NCBI RefSeq assembly: GCF_024125425.1
Contig: NZ_JAMXWN010000007.1
Span: 1-64,000 of the forward strand
DNA: 64,000 nt
Direction: 5' to 3'
DNA from: Sporolactobacillus kofuensis
GTDB taxonomy: Bacteria; Bacillota; Bacilli; Bacillales; Sporolactobacillaceae
The notes under the pieces are model-generated. The model had not been told where the DNA came from. It was given only the letters and a program-made list of their open reading frames with translations, and searched no databases. A program made the position numbers and the translations under genes. Every line of letters starts with the position of its first letter. Position 1 is the stretch's first letter. Shown piece by piece: positions 16,209-62,598 of the stretch.

Positions 16209-17756
<1,548 letters not shown>

Positions 17757-17784
17757 ATCAATAGATGCTCAGGCAAACGAGCAC

Positions 17785-17816
17785 AAAAAGGTCCGGTAAT
17801 CTGCCGGACCTTTTCT
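17785..17816 (+). terminator. glpK terminator
   Basis: AAAAGGTCCGG pairs with CCGGACCTTTT around a 7-nt loop. The repeat array begins about 13-25 bp further on. Confidence 0.9.
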
Positions 17817-17828
17817 AAAAACAAGATA

Positions 17829-17972
17829 ACGTTTTTCGCACAAAAATACAGCGAAGATGCGAGACGCCAGCGTGATCAGGTACCAGCAAGACCCCACAGA
17901 CTTATGCCTGTTCGAGGAAGCTCGCGGTGCGCCCGCGCAAAGCGAGCAATCGAAGTGCAATGGATACAAGAT
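17829..17972 (+). repeat. Structured intergenic repeat, copy 1 (array 1)
   Basis: Element with a T-rich/A-rich head followed by GCGAAGATGCGAGACGCC, GCGAGACC-CGCAG-like and GTTCGAGGA segments, and a tail near AAGCGAGCAATCG. This copy has TACCAGCAAGACCCC and AGCTCGCGG variants. It is in the same orientation as glpK, downstream of its terminator. It encodes no credible protein. Confidence 0.85.
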
Positions 17973-18019
17973 AAGAGCAGTGTGTTTTTGTCCATTTTTT
18001 CTCAAAATGAAAGTTGAAG

Positions 18020-18166
18020 ACTTTTTTGATTAAAAATACAGCGAAGATGCGAGACGCCAGCGTGATCAGCGTACCAGCGAGACCCCGCAGACTTATGCCT
18101 GTTCGAGGAGGCTTGCGGTGCGCCCGCGGCAAGCGAGCAATCGGAGCATAACTGATACAAAATAAG
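18020..18166 (+). repeat. Structured intergenic repeat, copy 2 (array 1)
   Basis: Starts 191 bp after copy 1 and is nearly identical to it and to copy 3, including the ACTTTTTTGATTAAAAAT head. The tail reads GGCAAGCGAGCAATCGGAGC, as in the copies at 45.5-46 kb. Confidence 0.88.
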
Positions 18167-18202
18167 AACTGGATGTTTTTTGCCCAATTATTAAAGTTGA
18201 AG

Positions 18203-18349
18203 ACTTTTTTGATTAAAAATACAGCGAAGATGCGAGACGCCAGCGGGATCAGCGTACCAGCGAGACCCCGCAGACTTATGCCTGTTCGAGGAGGCTTGCG
18301 GTGCGCCCGCGCAAAGCGAGCAATCGAAGTGCAATTGATGCAAAGTAAT
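18203..18349 (+). repeat. Structured intergenic repeat, copy 3 (array 1)
   Basis: Starts 183 bp after copy 2. The linker between copies 2 and 3 (CTGGATGTTTTTTGCCCAAT, then an AT-rich stretch) is also found, inverted, between the units of array 2. The repeated unit is therefore the whole 183-193 bp, not only the core. Confidence 0.88.
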
Positions 18350-18394
18350 AAATAGGTGGTTTCAGTTTTTCATAGTTAATCGAAGTGTAAATCA

Positions 18395-18423
18395 TTGAAT
18401 ATTATACCCCCTATGGGTATAAT
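18395..18423 (+). promoter_or_regulatory. Promoter of csoR-copA-copZ
   Basis: TTGAAT (18395-18400), 17-nt spacer, TATAAT (18418-18423). The spacer and -10 are covered by the CsoR operator. Confidence 0.85.
18403..18421. promoter_or_regulatory. CsoR operator
   Basis: Nineteen-bp palindrome, TATACCC at 18403 and GGGTATA ending at 18421, with a C-rich centre. It matches the GTATACCCC-type CsoR sites. Bound apo-CsoR would cover the -10 hexamer, and Cu(I) would release it. Confidence 0.88.
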
Positions 18424-18444
18424 TAATGATGAGGGGGTGATCTT

Positions 18445-18795
18445 ATGGATCAAGAAAAGAAATCATGCACATGTGCAGAAGGAACAGAACACTTGTCCAT
18501 AGAGTCGACACATCGAATGCCGCTCGTGCCGCGTACCTCTGATGAGAAACGCAAGATCATGAACCGGTTAAAACGCATTGAAGGACAAATTCGTGGGATT
18601 ACAAAAATGGTTGAAGACGATCGTTATTGTGTTGACATATTAATTCAAGTATCAGCGGTTAAGGCAGCTCTTGAAAAATTTGGCTTTTCAATCCTTGAGC
18701 GCCACACCAAATCATGCGTGACCAAAGCGATCGATGAGGGACATGGCGAAGAACAAATTAATGAACTGTTACAGGTATTCAAACAGTTTAAGTAG
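18445..18795 (+). CDS. csoR: Copper-sensing transcriptional repressor CsoR
   Basis: 116-aa all-helical CsoR/RcnR-family repressor. The Cu(I) ligands C62, H87 and C91 have exactly the spacing of B. subtilis CsoR (C45, H70, C74). An extra N-terminal extension of about 17 residues contains two more cysteines (SCTC, 8 and 10). It represses its own operon with copA and copZ until Cu(I) binds. ATG 18445 follows GAGGGGG. The operator and promoter lie 24-50 nt upstream, and copA starts 24 nt after the stop. Confidence 0.95.
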   Translation: MDQEKKSCTCAEGTEHLSIESTHRMPLVPRTSDEKRKIMNRLKRIEGQIRGITKMVEDDRYCVDILIQVSAVKAALEKFGFSILERHTKSCVTKAIDEGHGEEQINELLQVFKQFK

Positions 18796-21507: not shown

Positions 21508-21526
21508 AGTTAAGAAACGATAATCC

Positions 21527-21560
21527 TTCTTTCTTCAAAATGCAGCGAATATGTGAGACT
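21527..21560 (+). repeat. Head fragment of the structured intergenic repeat
   Basis: Only the first part is present: a T-rich head, AAAATGCAGCGAATATGTGA and then GACTT, compared with AAAATACAGCGAAGATGCGA in the full copies. It lies 20 bp after the copZ terminator and is in the same orientation as copZ. Confidence 0.5.
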
Positions 21561-21668
21561 TGTTTCCACAAGATTTTCATGAAGAAAGGAATGAATTTTT
21601 GACATAATTAGATCTAATCGAAATTTTTGTAATAGAATTAATTTTATTAAATGTTTATAATAGATATT

Positions 21669-26269: not shown

Positions 26270-26368
26270 CGATCAAAATCCCCTTCCCTGTTAATCATAC
26301 TATTATAACATTTTATTGAACGCGATGAAAATTTTAGCACCTATGGCATGTGTCAGGCTTTTCTCGTA

Positions 26369-26497
26369 ATGGAGCTTTTGGTCCGCGCTTGTCGCGGGCG
26401 ATCCGTGGACGTTCTCATACATGCGTGTGATCTGCGGGGTCTCACTTGGTTCGCGATCATCAGGCATAACCCGCAGGCGTCTTGCACTACACTTTTC
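26369..26497 (-). repeat. Structured intergenic repeat, diverged copy 3' of gerKC
   Basis: Minus-strand copy. CGCTTGTCGCGGGCG and TCTGCGGGGTCTCACTTGG on the plus strand correspond to the tail and middle of the element. CTGCGGG and CCCGCAG can pair. It lies about 28 bp beyond the stop of gerKC and points the same way as that gene. No separate terminator was found for the ger operon. Confidence 0.75.
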
Positions 26498-31681: not shown

Positions 31682-32476
31682 ATGGAAAAATCAGTAGTGG
31701 TAAAAAATGTATCAAAAAAATATAAAATGTACACGAAAAACTCAGAGAAGATTCTCGATCTGATTTCACCAAAGGGATATGGTAAAACATTTTACGCCCT
31801 GAATGATATTAGTTTTGAGGCGAACAAAGGTGATGTGGTCGGTATTATTGGCGTCAATGGTTCAGGAAAATCAACACTTTCCAACATCATTGCCGGTATC
31901 ATTCCGCCAACATCAGGTACCGTCGAGACTCATGGAGAAGCGGCATTGATAGCCATTCAGTCTGGGTTAAAGAAAGAACTGACCGGTAGAGAGAACATTG
32001 AGCTCAAATGCCTCATGCTTGGCTTTAATAAAAGTCAAATAAAAGAATTAACTCCTCAGATTATTGAATTTGCCGACATTGGTGATTTTATTGATCAACC
32101 GGTAAAAACCTACTCAAGTGGGATGAAATCAAGACTAGGCTTCGCAATTTCTATTCATATTGATCCGGATATATTGGTGATTGATGAGGCACTTTCCGTC
32201 GGTGATCAAACGTTCGCTGACAAATGTCTTGATAAAATGAATGAATTTAAGGAAAAAGGGAAAACGATCTTTTTCATTAGCCATTCCATTAGCCAGATGA
32301 AGAAGTTCTGTGAGAAAGCATTATGGATTCAATATGGACATGTTGAGCAATACGGTTTAATGGAAGAGGTAATGCCGGAGTATGAAAAATTCATCAAGGC
32401 GTACAAAAAAATGACAAAACAAGAGAAGAAAGCTCTTGCAAATAAAGTGAAAAAGAGCCGTATGATAAAATCCTGA
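31682..32476 (+). CDS. tagH: Teichoic acid ABC transporter ATP-binding protein TagH
   Basis: 264-aa ATPase: Walker A GVNGSGKST (about 57-65), signature YSSGMKSRL, Walker B ILVIDEALSVGDQ and the H-loop FISHS. It energises teichoic acid export with TagG. It has the short form (264 aa, as in Staphylococcus TarH) and lacks the long C-terminal extension of B. subtilis TagH (about 527 aa). It ends in a lysine-rich helix. GGGGCC lies upstream of ATG 31682. Confidence 0.94.
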   Translation: MEKSVVVKNVSKKYKMYTKNSEKILDLISPKGYGKTFYALNDISFEANKGDVVGIIGVNGSGKSTLSNIIAGIIPPTSGTVETHGEAALIAIQSGLKKELTGRENIELKCLMLGFNKSQIKELTPQIIEFADIGDFIDQPVKTYSSGMKSRLGFAISIHIDPDILVIDEALSVGDQTFADKCLDKMNEFKEKGKTIFFISHSISQMKKFCEKALWIQYGHVEQYGLMEEVMPEYEKFIKAYKKMTKQEKKALANKVKKSRMIKS

Positions 32477-32499
32477 GCGTTAAAGCGCTCAGGATTTTT
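32467..32499 (+). terminator. tagGH terminator
   Basis: AATCCTGAGCG pairs with CGCTCAGGATT, followed by TTTTTC. The tagH stop codon lies in the 5' arm. Confidence 0.92.
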
Positions 32500-32512
32500 C
32501 AAAAGAAAAGAA

Positions 32513-32610
32513 ACTTTTTGCTTAAAAATGAGCAAAGATGCGAGACGCCTCGCGAACAGGTGCCCTTCGGTGCGTCCGCGACAAGCGAGCAATCGGAGCA
32601 TAATTGATCA
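32513..32610 (+). repeat. Structured intergenic repeat, internally deleted copy
   Basis: Has the AACTTTTTGCTTAAAAATGA head, AAGATGCGAGACGCC and the tail ACAAGCGAGCAATCGGAGCA, but lacks most of the middle. It lies 14 bp after the tagH terminator and is in the same orientation as tagH. Confidence 0.82.
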
Positions 32611-32678
32611 AGATCATGGACCGGACCTTTTTGTTCGCGGTTTTTCTAATTTTTCGCGTGAGCCCAGCAATAAAAAAA

Positions 32679-35760: not shown

Positions 35761-35779
35761 GTGATTTATACACGGCTGC

Positions 35780-35899
35780 TCTTATTCCGAGTAGGCAGAG
35801 GGACAGGCCCGATGAAGCCCGGCAACCGGCCAAATAATTGGTACGGTGCTAACCTGCAGAGAAAGGAAAATAACCTTTCTTCTGATAATAAGAGGCACG
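35780..35899 (+). ncRNA. SAM-I (S-box) riboswitch of metK
   Basis: The conserved S-box blocks are present in order: CTCTTATTCCGAG, GCAGAGGGACAGGCCC, GATGAAGCCCGGCAACC, GGTGCTAACCTGC and the closing AATAAGAGG that pairs with the first strand (P1). SAM binding stabilises P1 and lets the downstream terminator (35912-35940) form, lowering metK expression. Confidence 0.96.
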
Positions 35900-39687: not shown

Positions 39688-39953
39688 AACCTTATAAATG
39701 AAATCACAATGACGGAGAGTACTAGCTAATGAACCCTTTCAGAGAGCCGGTGTTTGGTGTGAATCGGCATGGGAATTTAGGCGAACTCGCTCTTGAGTTA
39801 CAGGGTTGCCTTTGATTAGGTACCTTGTCGTTTCCCCACGTTACGGATTCAAGTGAGCATAATTTTTATTAAGCTAATTTGGGTGGTACCGCGGGAATTA
39901 ATAGTCATCAACCTCTCGTCCCTAACTAACAGGTTAAGGATGAGAGGTTTTTT
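39688..39953 (+). ncRNA. Leucine T-box leader of leuS
   Basis: T-box riboswitch: Stem I with AGAGAGCCGG and GGTGTGAATCGGCA, a probable CTC (leucine) specifier at 39786-39788 following GAA, the T-box sequence GGGTGGTACCGCGG (39881-39894) and a terminator. Uncharged tRNA-Leu(GAG) would pair with the specifier and the T-box bulge, form the antiterminator and permit leuS transcription. Confidence 0.95.
39910..39953 (+). terminator. T-box terminator
   Basis: AACCTCTCGTCC pairs with GGATGAGAGGTT, followed by a T-run. Confidence 0.9.
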
Positions 39954-44317: not shown

Positions 44318-44836
44318 TTATCTTGGAGGAAATCCCGGAATACCGATAGGCGGCATAGGAAACCCAAGTCTTTGTTCAAGGGCACGCACACGACGATCTA
44401 AGCTTTGAAGTTCACGCTGAACTTGTTGTTGCTGCCGTTCAACTTGGCGTAATTGCCGCTCAAATTGCTGCTGTTGTTGTTCAACCTGTCGTAACTGCCG
44501 CTGAATTTGTTGTTGTTGTCGTTCAAGTTGGGTTAATCGCCTTTCAATTTGTTGCGGATTAAAAGGCGGTTGAGGTGGACGAGGCGGTTGCTGCATTTGC
44601 CGGTTTTCTAGTGATGTACCGTCCCATTCAAAGCTGTTCTCCTTATAAGGTTCGGTGAATCCTTGCGTTTGTGGAAATGGAAATGCGATCTCTGATGGTG
44701 ATTGAAATGGAAGAGCCGTTGGATCATTCTGAATGGAATACGTAGGTTGCGGATTAATTATTCCTCTTGGTGCTGAAGACGGTTGAAATGCGCTTGCGTC
44801 TGTTGGGATCGATTCGGAATTCGGGCTTGAAAACAT
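44318..44836 (-). CDS. Q-rich coiled-coil protein with Pro-rich ends, unknown function
   Basis: 172-aa product that I cannot assign to a family. Residues 1-75 are polar and low in predicted structure. At 84-95 is a proline cluster (PPRPPQPPFNP). Residues 97-159 are a coiled coil with 14-residue repeats: 104-117 LERQQQQIQRQLRQ, 118-131 VEQQQQQFERQLRQ, 132-145 VERQQQQVQRELQS and a degenerate 146-159. The C-terminus is FPMPPIGIPGFPPR. There is no signal peptide or membrane helix. ATG 44836 follows GGGAGG. Composition recalls spore coat or other self-assembling proteins, but that is only a guess. Confidence 0.75.
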   Translation of the reverse strand: MFSSPNSESIPTDASAFQPSSAPRGIINPQPTYSIQNDPTALPFQSPSEIAFPFPQTQGFTEPYKENSFEWDGTSLENRQMQQPPRPPQPPFNPQQIERRLTQLERQQQQIQRQLRQVEQQQQQFERQLRQVERQQQQVQRELQSLDRRVRALEQRLGFPMPPIGIPGFPPR

Positions 44837-44944
44837 GTTTCTTTCCTCCCTGTACATAATTGGATAACAATCGTTTATAGTCTATGTTCCAAAATGAATT
44901 TTGCCTATAAACGCTTTAATTGATGTAGGGGAGGGAAAAGGTCA

Positions 44945-45189: not shown

Positions 45190-45530
45190 ATAACCACTCC
45201 CTAGATTATTTATCAATAAAAGGTATGCCTTCTATTGAGCAAAATATTCAAAAAAGAGTAAAAACAGAGGAGTTTTCACAAGGAAATACTTCCAAATGCT
45301 ATGGGTTAGGAAGATGATGGATCATCTCTATGGTCGCCAACACAGAACCGTGAGACGCCAAAAACCCCTATCAGAGTCATGATGTCATTGAATTATCGAA
45401 TTAAACAATTTAAATATAACTCTTTAATCGAAAAAGTCAAACATTTTATGGAAATTTTATTTCATTTTATTCATTTAGGTTCGTTTATTTAAAATGTTCG
45501 TTGTTTAAGAAATTTTTTCAATCCTTATTT
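45190..45530. other. AT-rich intergenic region upstream of ytzE
   Basis: No gene seen. AT-rich, especially 45400-45520. CGTGAGACGCC near 45351 matches a short piece of the intergenic repeat, but too little to call a copy. Confidence 0.4.
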
Positions 45531-45682
45531 TGTATCAATTATGCTCCGATTGCTCGCTTGCCGCGGGCGCACCGCAAGCCTCCTCGAGCAGGCAAATATC
45601 TGCGGGGTCTCGCTGGTACGCGATCATCTGGAACAGTCCCGCAGGCGTCTCGCATCTTCGCTCATTTTTAAAGAAAAAACCT
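45531..45682 (-). repeat. Structured intergenic repeat, copy A (array 2)
   Basis: Minus-strand copy. TGCTCG pairs with CGAGCA around an inner GCTTGC/GCAAGC stem. CTGCGGG pairs with CCCGCAG around an inner TCGC/GCGA hairpin. It is in the same orientation as cysK, whose 3' end lies to the right. Confidence 0.88.
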
Positions 45683-45723
45683 TAACCTTTAATAATTGGG
45701 CAAAAAACATCCAGTCCTTATTT

Positions 45724-45875
45724 TGTATCAATTATGCTCCGATTGCTCGCTTGCCGCGGGCGCACCGCAAGCCTCCTCGAGCAGGCAAATATCTGCGGGG
45801 TCTCGCTGGTACGCGATCATCTGGAACAGTCCCGCATGCGTCTCACATCTTCGCTCATTTTTAAAGAAAAAACCT
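45724..45875 (-). repeat. Structured intergenic repeat, copy B (array 2)
   Basis: Exactly 193 bp from copy A and nearly identical, including the linker. CCCGCAT replaces CCCGCAG. Confidence 0.88.
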
Positions 45876-45916
45876 TAACCTTTAATAATTGGGCAAAAAA
45901 CATCCAGTCCTTATTT

Positions 45917-46003
45917 TGTATTAATTTTGCTCCGATTGCTCGCTTGCCGCGGGCGTACCGCAAGCCTCCTCGAGCAGGCAAAAGTCTGCGGGGTCTCGCT
46001 GGT
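45917..46003 (-). repeat. Structured intergenic repeat, copy C (array 2), partial
   Basis: Again offset by 193 bp from copy B. Tail and middle are intact, but the head is replaced by unrelated sequence containing TCCTGATTCAGGA. Confidence 0.82.
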
Positions 46004-46069
46004 CCCTGATTCAGGAACGGACTCGCTGAAACACGCGAATTTATACTGTGATCACTCATGTACCCATTT

Positions 46070-59388: not shown

Positions 59389-59416
59389 TATACACGAACA
59401 ACCTAATGGTATTTAT

Positions 59417-59460
59417 GTAAAAATAGAGACGCTCGGTGCAAGCGAGCAACCGGAGCGTCA
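59417..59460 (+). repeat. Tail fragment of the structured intergenic repeat
   Basis: Has a TAAAAATAGAGACG head-like piece and a tail GGTGCAAGCGAGCAACCGGA, with the middle lost. It lies about 30 bp after the ccpA terminator, in ccpA orientation. Confidence 0.6.
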
Positions 59461-59526
59461 CCAAAATCAGGCAGGGCTTAAGGACTTTACTTCGCCCAGT
59501 TTTTCGAATCATAAGATGAGCTTAGA

Positions 59527-62181: not shown

Positions 62182-62460
62182 AACTCCTCTGAAATTTAGT
62201 CATGAATAGCTTATAACATTCTAAAAATTTAATTAAAGCTTCTTATATATTAGCGTAAATTTCAACTGTTGAAAAGAATAAACGCAATTCGGGTAGATGA
62301 CATTAGTAATGTGTAGTTAAAAAAGGGTTTTAACCTTTTTTCTCTACTCCACTCGCATAATCCTTTGTTATCACAATAAAAGAAAGCTGATAAGGTTTGT
62401 TTGTATAAGTATAACTGTGCAAAAATTTCTCAGGCGGTCTATTTTGCATTGATGAGGCAT
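62182..62460. other. Intergenic region upstream of the PBP gene
   Basis: AT-rich, no gene. It should contain the PBP promoter on the minus strand; no pair of hexamers stood out. Confidence 0.4.
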
Positions 62461-62582
62461 CGAATACGGCTTGCCGCGGGTAACCGCAAGCCTCCTCGAA
62501 TCAGAGGATCTGCGAGGTCTCGCTGGCACCTGATCCCGAAGTCGTCTCGCGTCTCTGCTCCACTTTAAGCAAAAAGTTTAAT
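62461..62582 (-). repeat. Structured intergenic repeat 3' of rpsD
   Basis: Minus-strand copy with the AACTTTTTGCTTAAA head also seen after tagH, GAGACGCGAGACGAC, CCAGCGAGACC and the tail GAGGCTTGCGG...CGGCAAGCC. It begins about 17 bp beyond the rpsD terminator and has the orientation of rpsD. Confidence 0.82.
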
Positions 62583-62598
62583 ACTTCCTTACCTTGCA

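Follow-up and report, generated by a model that had tools for sequence, protein, structure and literature searches.

Short structured repeats behind transcription terminators in Sporolactobacillus and other Bacillales, a probable family of terminator-targeting mobile elements

The stretch of DNA analysed here (the window) comprises 64,000 nt from Sporolactobacillus kofuensis. Its interval 17756-18445 runs from glpK through three copies of a short repeat to csoR; in five congeners a gene of 559-606 aa that we did not identify (perhaps glpD) directly follows glpK instead. The repeat, hereafter the element, is multicopy, non-coding and about 130-180 nt long. All seven loci named in a preliminary description of this DNA (behind glpK, copZ, gerKC, tagH, cysK, ccpA and rpsD) are present. 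We identified nine copies at the profile level (three each after glpK and cysK, one each after rpsD, tagH and gerKC) plus two remnants, pieces behind copZ and ccpA that were detected solely by blastn or weak nhmmer matches. Within the window, every copy follows a gene and shares the orientation of that gene. The features are as follows.

17786-17815, + strand: host terminator of glpK (hairpin and T-tract), read from the sequence
17825-18002, + strand: element copy 1 after glpK, type A, with terminator-like tail (model match 17833-17975, 116.3 bits; ends read)
18017-18185, + strand: element copy 2 after glpK, in tandem (model match 18023-18166, 128.3 bits; nhmmer range)
18200-18363, + strand: element copy 3 after glpK, in tandem (model match 18206-18348, 124.7 bits; nhmmer range)
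21511-21562, + strand: remnant (head and start of the core) behind the copZ terminator (blastn 84.6% over 26 nt; read; missed by the model)
26367-26489, - strand: type E copy after gerKC, without terminator tail (model match, 58.1 bits; flanks read)
32470-32500, + strand: host terminator of tagH, overlapping the stop codon (read; the orthologous terminator is element-free in G003, G004 and G007)
32505-32649, + strand: element after tagH, with an internal core deletion (model match 32513-32618, 60 bits; ends read)
45524-45680, - strand: third cysK copy, in a 193-nt tandem duplicate (98%) with the second (model match, 127.1 bits)
45717-45873, - strand: second cysK copy, in tandem (model match, 124 bits)
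45910-46043, - strand: element copy closest to cysK, with a diverged head (model match, 98.8 bits)
59412-59506, + strand: remnant with a deleted core and a terminator-like tail, behind the terminator of ccpA (nhmmer E 0.046 and a 27-nt blastn match; read)
62405-62593, - strand: element after rpsD, its head a few nt beyond the T-tract (model match 62440-62577, 93.6 bits; ends read)

Three consecutive copies occur at each of two loci, glpK and cysK. Because two of the cysK copies sit in the 193-nt, 98% identical duplicate, the arrays grew partly by local duplication. The cysK locus counts as tandem only if the open reading frame at 44318-44857 (- strand) is a gene, and our codon-model caller did not call it. 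At the Rfam gathering score, the window holds nothing but a T-box leader (39700-39926, + strand) and a SAM riboswitch (35779-35894, + strand). The window copies of the element, which were scanned without the Bacillaceae copies, went unmatched; at E<=5 the cysK copies gave one match (E 2.8), far under its cut-off.

The head of many copies is a form of GATAAGAAAGTATAA, followed by a T/A-rich stretch and then by the core, in the order GCGAGACGCCTGCGGGA ... GAGACCCCGCAG ... GAGGAGGCT ... CCCGCGGCAAGCGAGCA. The tail is a terminator-like hairpin, GGACTGGGC ... GCCCAGTTTTTCTTA. For terminal inverted repeats, type A shows by eye no more than TAAGAAA/TTTCTTA. Subfamilies B-D, also distinguished by eye, have other heads and tails, yet they too end in a hairpin and T-tract, and each of types A-D appears to finish in a terminator-like hairpin of its own. 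Type E, the different subfamily to which the gerKC copy belongs, has no terminator and carries inverted ends, TGTGTAAAAAGTTTCTCGG / CCGAGAAAAGCTTGACACA (for example at window 26367-26489, and in L121 and L079). An outward TTGACA in type E could act as a -35 box, and 5 of 12 type E copies lie in divergent regions. Genome-wide, GATAAGAAAGTATAA has 8 exact occurrences, 7 coinciding with a model match, and 43 occurrences when one mismatch is allowed, versus 22 for the pattern read backwards. Twenty places with the head motif away from model matches were fetched; 6 scored between 8.5 and 49 bits with the element HMM, several lying behind a terminator, and 14 gave no match to it. Decayed and core-deleted copies exist.

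A model derived from sequence alone, with the nine window copies as input, gave at least 139 matches at E<=0.01 in the 2.96-Mb genome, spread over 117 intergenic regions. The number is a lower bound, given that 150 of 531 first-look candidates were scored. Genes were called with our own codon-model caller on stretches around elements; RNA genes were not called, and the calls were not checked against an annotation. No copy lies in a called gene (none of the 139 shares more than 30 bp with a called CDS). The element is in tandem with the flanking genes in 73 regions and against them in 5; a further 23 regions are convergent, 13 are divergent, and 3 lack one neighbour. The preliminary description had the element always 3' of a gene and in its orientation, which is true of the window and too strong for the genome. 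The profile search and orientation scoring that it proposed do find a strong polarity (73 of 78 tandem regions). Counted by copy, those with a recognised head are tandem with the genes in 37 cases, against in 3, convergent in 14 and divergent in 3; for type E these numbers are 6, 1, 0 and 5, and for the remaining copies 46, 1, 14 and 9 (the three neighbour-less copies are placed under convergent or divergent). Among regions of at least 100 bp, elements occupy 78 of the 208 that are tandem, 23 of the 47 convergent and 13 of the 67 divergent. These are not genome-wide rates, as the fetched stretches were picked around elements.

Replication direction could also impose a polarity. With the leading strand taken as each contig's majority strand, leading-strand tandem genes have 68 elements with them and 2 against, and lagging-strand tandem genes 5 and 3. 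Convergent elements number 17 leading versus 6 lagging, divergent elements 7 versus 6. Gene and replication direction are partly confounded here. Replication as the cause of the polarity is weakened, not excluded; on the lagging tandem and the convergent counts, it may add to the orientation bias.

The position relative to the terminator is tight. Among first copies scoring 40 bits or more (96 in all), a simple finder detected a terminator at 59 of 81 co-oriented ones versus 1 of 15 others; applied to regions without an element, the finder reported one at 89 of the 178 3' ends of genes and on 12 of the 238 5' sides. The distance from the end of the T-tract to the head GATAAGAAAGTATAA is -2 to 8 nt, with a mode of 4, for 33 of the 43 first copies that are co-oriented and bear a head, and falls within that range in 1 of 6 copies in other orientations. 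The head does lie past the terminator, as had been proposed, at a shorter distance than the 14-35 bp given, which ran to the T-rich stretch.

Orthologous sites in five congeners carry the element in some species and lack it in others. For tagH, the genomes have both the terminator and a downstream landmark in common; no element is present in G003, G004 or G007, and elements are present in G001 too. Those of G000 and G013 differ in type and agree in place and orientation, and by eye about five bases of the host still separate the T-tract from the G013 insertion. The copZ site holds one full element and, by eye, a partial second in G007, a partial element in G013, and none in G004 or G001. The G004/G007 pair, 90-94% identical in aligned stretches, yielded no clean, readable target duplication. 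Behind copZ in G003, a group II intron with a domain V match starts four bases beyond the terminator T-tract; it spans two contig ends (L142 from about 7380, and L148 1-345). That congeners differ at orthologous terminators indicates, on sequence comparison, that the element is mobile.

The element is not confined to the genus. Of 58 genomes from the order, 37 match the model at E<=1e-6, among them 15 of 15 from the genus. The ccpA loci of 80 named records include 10 with matches at E<=0.1: two Sporolactobacillus, two Fictibacillus, two Sutcliffiella horikoshii, Alkalihalobacillus macyae, Cytobacillus oceanisediminis, Bacillus sp. CHD6a and a record named Paenibacillus sp. BSR1-1. At named loci outside Sporolactobacillus, 13 copies divide into 7 tandem with the genes, 2 against and 4 convergent. 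The 30 best copies from three genomes of other families are tandem with the genes in 17 cases and against in 2, with 6 convergent and 5 divergent; both tandem exceptions come from G049, in which 2 tandem copies are with and 2 against. Different terminal sequences carry the common core in different genera. In G049 (L257 and L264) the ends resemble GGCTCTGTTAA, and 8-9 bp direct repeats are visible by eye in two copies, which together look like a conventional MITE vehicle around the shared core. A blastn search of plasmids and phages with one window copy gave no match, and one exact core pattern gave 0 matches in viral contigs; Bacillaceae forms were not among the queries of either search. With more than 100 copies per genome in several Bacillales, and no Rfam match for the window copies, the element is relevant to annotation.

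The core is predicted to fold into a nested structure of three helices, S0 (TGC/GCA), S1 (GCC.GCGGG/CCCGCGGC) and S2 (GCGNNCC.AGYGAG/CTCRCGGNNCGC), plus the tail hairpin. RNAalifold returned zero pairs on the gappy alignment of 67 Sporolactobacillus copies, a result that we attribute to the gaps, and was replaced by an explicit pair count. By that count, 83.5% of cells are paired and two-sided changes number 98, versus 48.7 +- 5.6 when shuffled (0/500). Kinship among copies can inflate the number of pair changes in this test, and covariation in Bacillaceae is the more independent one. From 34 Bacillaceae copies, RNAalifold proposes S1 and S2 unaided, with two-sided change in 8 of 17 pairs. The S0 arms of these copies pair better with their own partner (5.11) than with those of others (3.48; 0/2000 permutations). 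For S2, in 33 copies, the values are 3.42 versus 2.96 (0/2000), but this test is weak, because the arms were excised with a crude pattern that failed to catch the true one in several copies. Two window copies folded singly as one strand were no more stable than shuffles (z -0.22 and -0.68). The three stems first suggested for the element (CTGCGGG/CCCGCAG, GCTTGC/GCAAGC and TGCTCG/CGAGCA) pair no better than with shuffled partners, whereas other helices do; covariation, which the preliminary description had put forward as a check, supports the nested S0/S1/S2 and tail fold and none of those stems. We conclude that the core is structured and its fold conserved; compensatory changes in Sporolactobacillus support this, and so do those found in Bacillaceae on their own.

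A footprint of insertion comes from a Sutcliffiella-type lineage. In the Sutcliffiella-like genome G035 the element ends are CAGTGTGTAGACAAA ... TTTGTCAACAGTCTG, inverted at 12 of 15 positions and found in S. horikoshii as well. Each of the first ten copies read is flanked at either end by the hairpin of the host terminator, and with wider flanks their repeats are 10-27, versus 6-12 in mismatched pairs. For a second set, 20 loci were picked by exact ends alone; both ends were recognised in 18, 3 of which were already in the first set. A direct repeat of at least 10 nt flanks 17 of these 18 copies, by eye part or all of a hairpin, and mismatched flank pairs (n=306) reach at most 9 nt. The lone exception, L286, has no hairpin duplication. 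Perfect whole-hairpin copies measure 21, 21, 24, 26 and 31 nt, and therefore the length of the repeat follows the hairpin. Most co-oriented copies have an upstream hairpin without a T-tract and a downstream hairpin with one. Orientation agrees with the upstream gene in 16 of 18 copies (tandem 9 with, 2 against). In L266 (= L295) the flanking hairpins have identical arms and different loops, which suggests later constraint on the stems. No hairpin duplication was found in ten copies from G051 (6-9 versus 5-12 in mismatched pairs) or ten from G049 (6-9 versus 6-17), and none was detectable in 23 Sporolactobacillus copies (own repeats 4-9 versus 3-11).

Filled and empty sites can be compared in two records of S. 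horikoshii. In DSM 8719 (L230), two of three copies have the hairpin duplication and the third is without it. CH28_1T (L242) is syntenic with L230 and probably another species under the same name, because aligned stretches are 76-92% identical. At both places it has a single hairpin with T-tract and no element, the empty counterpart of the DSM 8719 site. At the first, the filled site reads ATAAAACGAACGTGC...GCACGTTCGTTT, element, AAACGAACGTGC...GCACGTTCGTTTTATTTTACATT, and the empty one has a single AAAACGAACGTGC...GCACGTTCGTTTTATTTTACATT; at the second, the filled and empty hairpins match in position and differ in some bases. As far as sequence can tell, the pattern at these two sites is what insertion with hairpin duplication would leave.

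Taken together, we consider it likely that these repeats form a superfamily of small, non-coding, non-autonomous mobile elements that target terminators, share a structured core and occur throughout Bacillales; the enzyme that moves them is unidentified. Copy number, polarity, terminator spacing, differing presence among species, the fold, and hairpin duplication with empty sites all come from direct comparison of genomes. Mobility and terminator targeting likewise rest on comparison. Of the explanations first offered, insertion next to terminators with fixed polarity is favoured by the head spacing, the species-specific presence and the filled and empty Sutcliffiella pairs with their hairpin duplication.

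In the mechanism that we propose, the target would be the intrinsic terminator of a gene. The mover would recognise the terminator hairpin and T-tract and place the element just downstream, its 5' end toward the gene. In Sporolactobacillus, landing about 4 nt past the T-tract would give gene, terminator, element and a second terminator (the element's own hairpin), which could serve in turn as the target of the next copy. In the Sutcliffiella type, landing would be between hairpin and T-tract, the whole hairpin (about 20-31 nt) would be copied, and the outcome would be gene, hairpin, element, hairpin and T-tract. We infer that the hairpin itself, as a DNA cruciform or single strand, is the thing recognised, that the core fold is the recognition site of a trans-acting enzyme, and that one machinery, or its relatives, serves both lineages. 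The lineages may not share one mechanism, because hairpin duplication is missing in Sporolactobacillus, G051 and G049; an early insertion might have captured a duplicated hairpin as the Sporolactobacillus tail, a path for which there is no test.

No transposase has been linked to the element, and none was searched for by family. A search in G035 for an autonomous partner by its end sequences found no end pair more than about 500 nt apart among the ends listed (in one search, 100 of 175 ends). A literature search limited to open papers turned up nothing that we recognised as describing the element; PMC11109978, in the part accessible to us, reports 250 mobile or repeat candidates in 50 genomes, and its supplements could include this family. 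We raise only tentatively that this is an undescribed form of DNA mobility, in which a folded terminator is targeted, the hairpin is duplicated whatever its sequence or length and host termination is preserved, with the folded core as recognition module and an order-wide family using gene 3' ends as a safe harbour. If so, insertion would leave termination of the host gene intact. Small bacterial repeats are usually filed as intergenic clutter; here there is a rule, behind terminators and facing with the gene, and the whole-hairpin target copy with empty sites in one lineage is a directly testable insertion footprint. The question bears on how mobile DNA finds harmless sites and on how transcript 3' ends evolve.

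Polarity might instead reflect function, if selection keeps a 3'-UTR RNA or back-up terminator behind genes, where it would stop read-through or stabilise mRNA ends. The strong polarity and the constraint on the core fold fit such a role. So do the terminator-like hairpin and T-tract seen by eye in types A-D, on which the suggestion of a back-up transcription barrier would rest and which in our reading belong to the element itself. Since most upstream hairpin copies in Sutcliffiella are without a T-tract, we infer that the element should be transcribed. A function is nevertheless unlikely to account for the family, given that presence at orthologous genes varies between related species, that decayed and core-deleted copies exist, that insertion with hairpin copying is a signature of mobility, and that, in our judgement, the host genes have no obvious need in common. 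Given the conserved fold of the core, the proposed 3'-UTR RNA role as such cannot be ruled out.

Nor does an ordinary MITE seem at all probable, that is, one inserting at random, with polarity and place as the residue of selection against harmful insertions. The inverted ends of type E, G035 and G049 are of this kind, type E and G049 copies do look like ordinary MITEs, and selection alone could give the lower frequency in divergent than in tandem or convergent regions. Such selection does not explain the tight T-tract spacing or the hairpin duplication, nor the 73:5 polarity of tandem regions, in which an element ought to be tolerated either way round.

Least credible is an origin in group IIC introns, with the element as their derivative or passenger. 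The RT of such introns inserts at stem-loops, often terminators, and the G003 intron does sit at the element's typical spacing behind copZ. Against this, no Rfam group II model matches the window copies, reverse splicing would not be expected to duplicate a hairpin, and G012 has at least 54 copies without an RF00029 match while G006 has 1 copy and 2 introns. Group II introns were likewise rejected as movers, since intron number does not track element copy number in 13 congeners.

Among known systems, REP and BIME sequences are intergenic structured repeats, often 3' of genes, as the element is, and REPs are tied to RAYT proteins. That tie does not apply to what was seen of the element. Neither does the REP size, 20-40 bp according to the accessible part of PMC3733652. 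IS1549 and IS1634 make long direct repeats of variable length (8-514 bp; PMC2266710, available in part). The repeats of the element are alike in this respect, except that they follow the hairpin and that no transposase is linked to them; by analogy, an enzyme of this type may be a clue to the mover, as a lead only. Group IIC introns recognise a DNA stem-loop and insert beside it with fixed polarity (PMC10190682, in the portion available). The element also inserts beyond stem-loops with fixed polarity, a likeness in working and not in membership: it is about 150 nt long, shows no intron domains or RT, and duplicates the hairpin in Sutcliffiella. Like MITEs, it is short and non-coding, has many intergenic copies and bears inverted ends in some lineages. 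It lacks the fixed-length target duplication of MITEs: the repeat follows the hairpin in G035 (21-31 nt where perfect), was not detected in Sporolactobacillus and is 8-9 bp in G049 (two copies, by eye). The partly accessible PMC2267715 describes bcr1 and the B. halodurans family Bhal-1 (74 bp, 36 copies); Bhal-1 is possibly related, the sequences not having been compared. From MITEs and bcr1-type repeats the element differs by its terminator targeting, its polarity and a conserved core under genus-specific ends.
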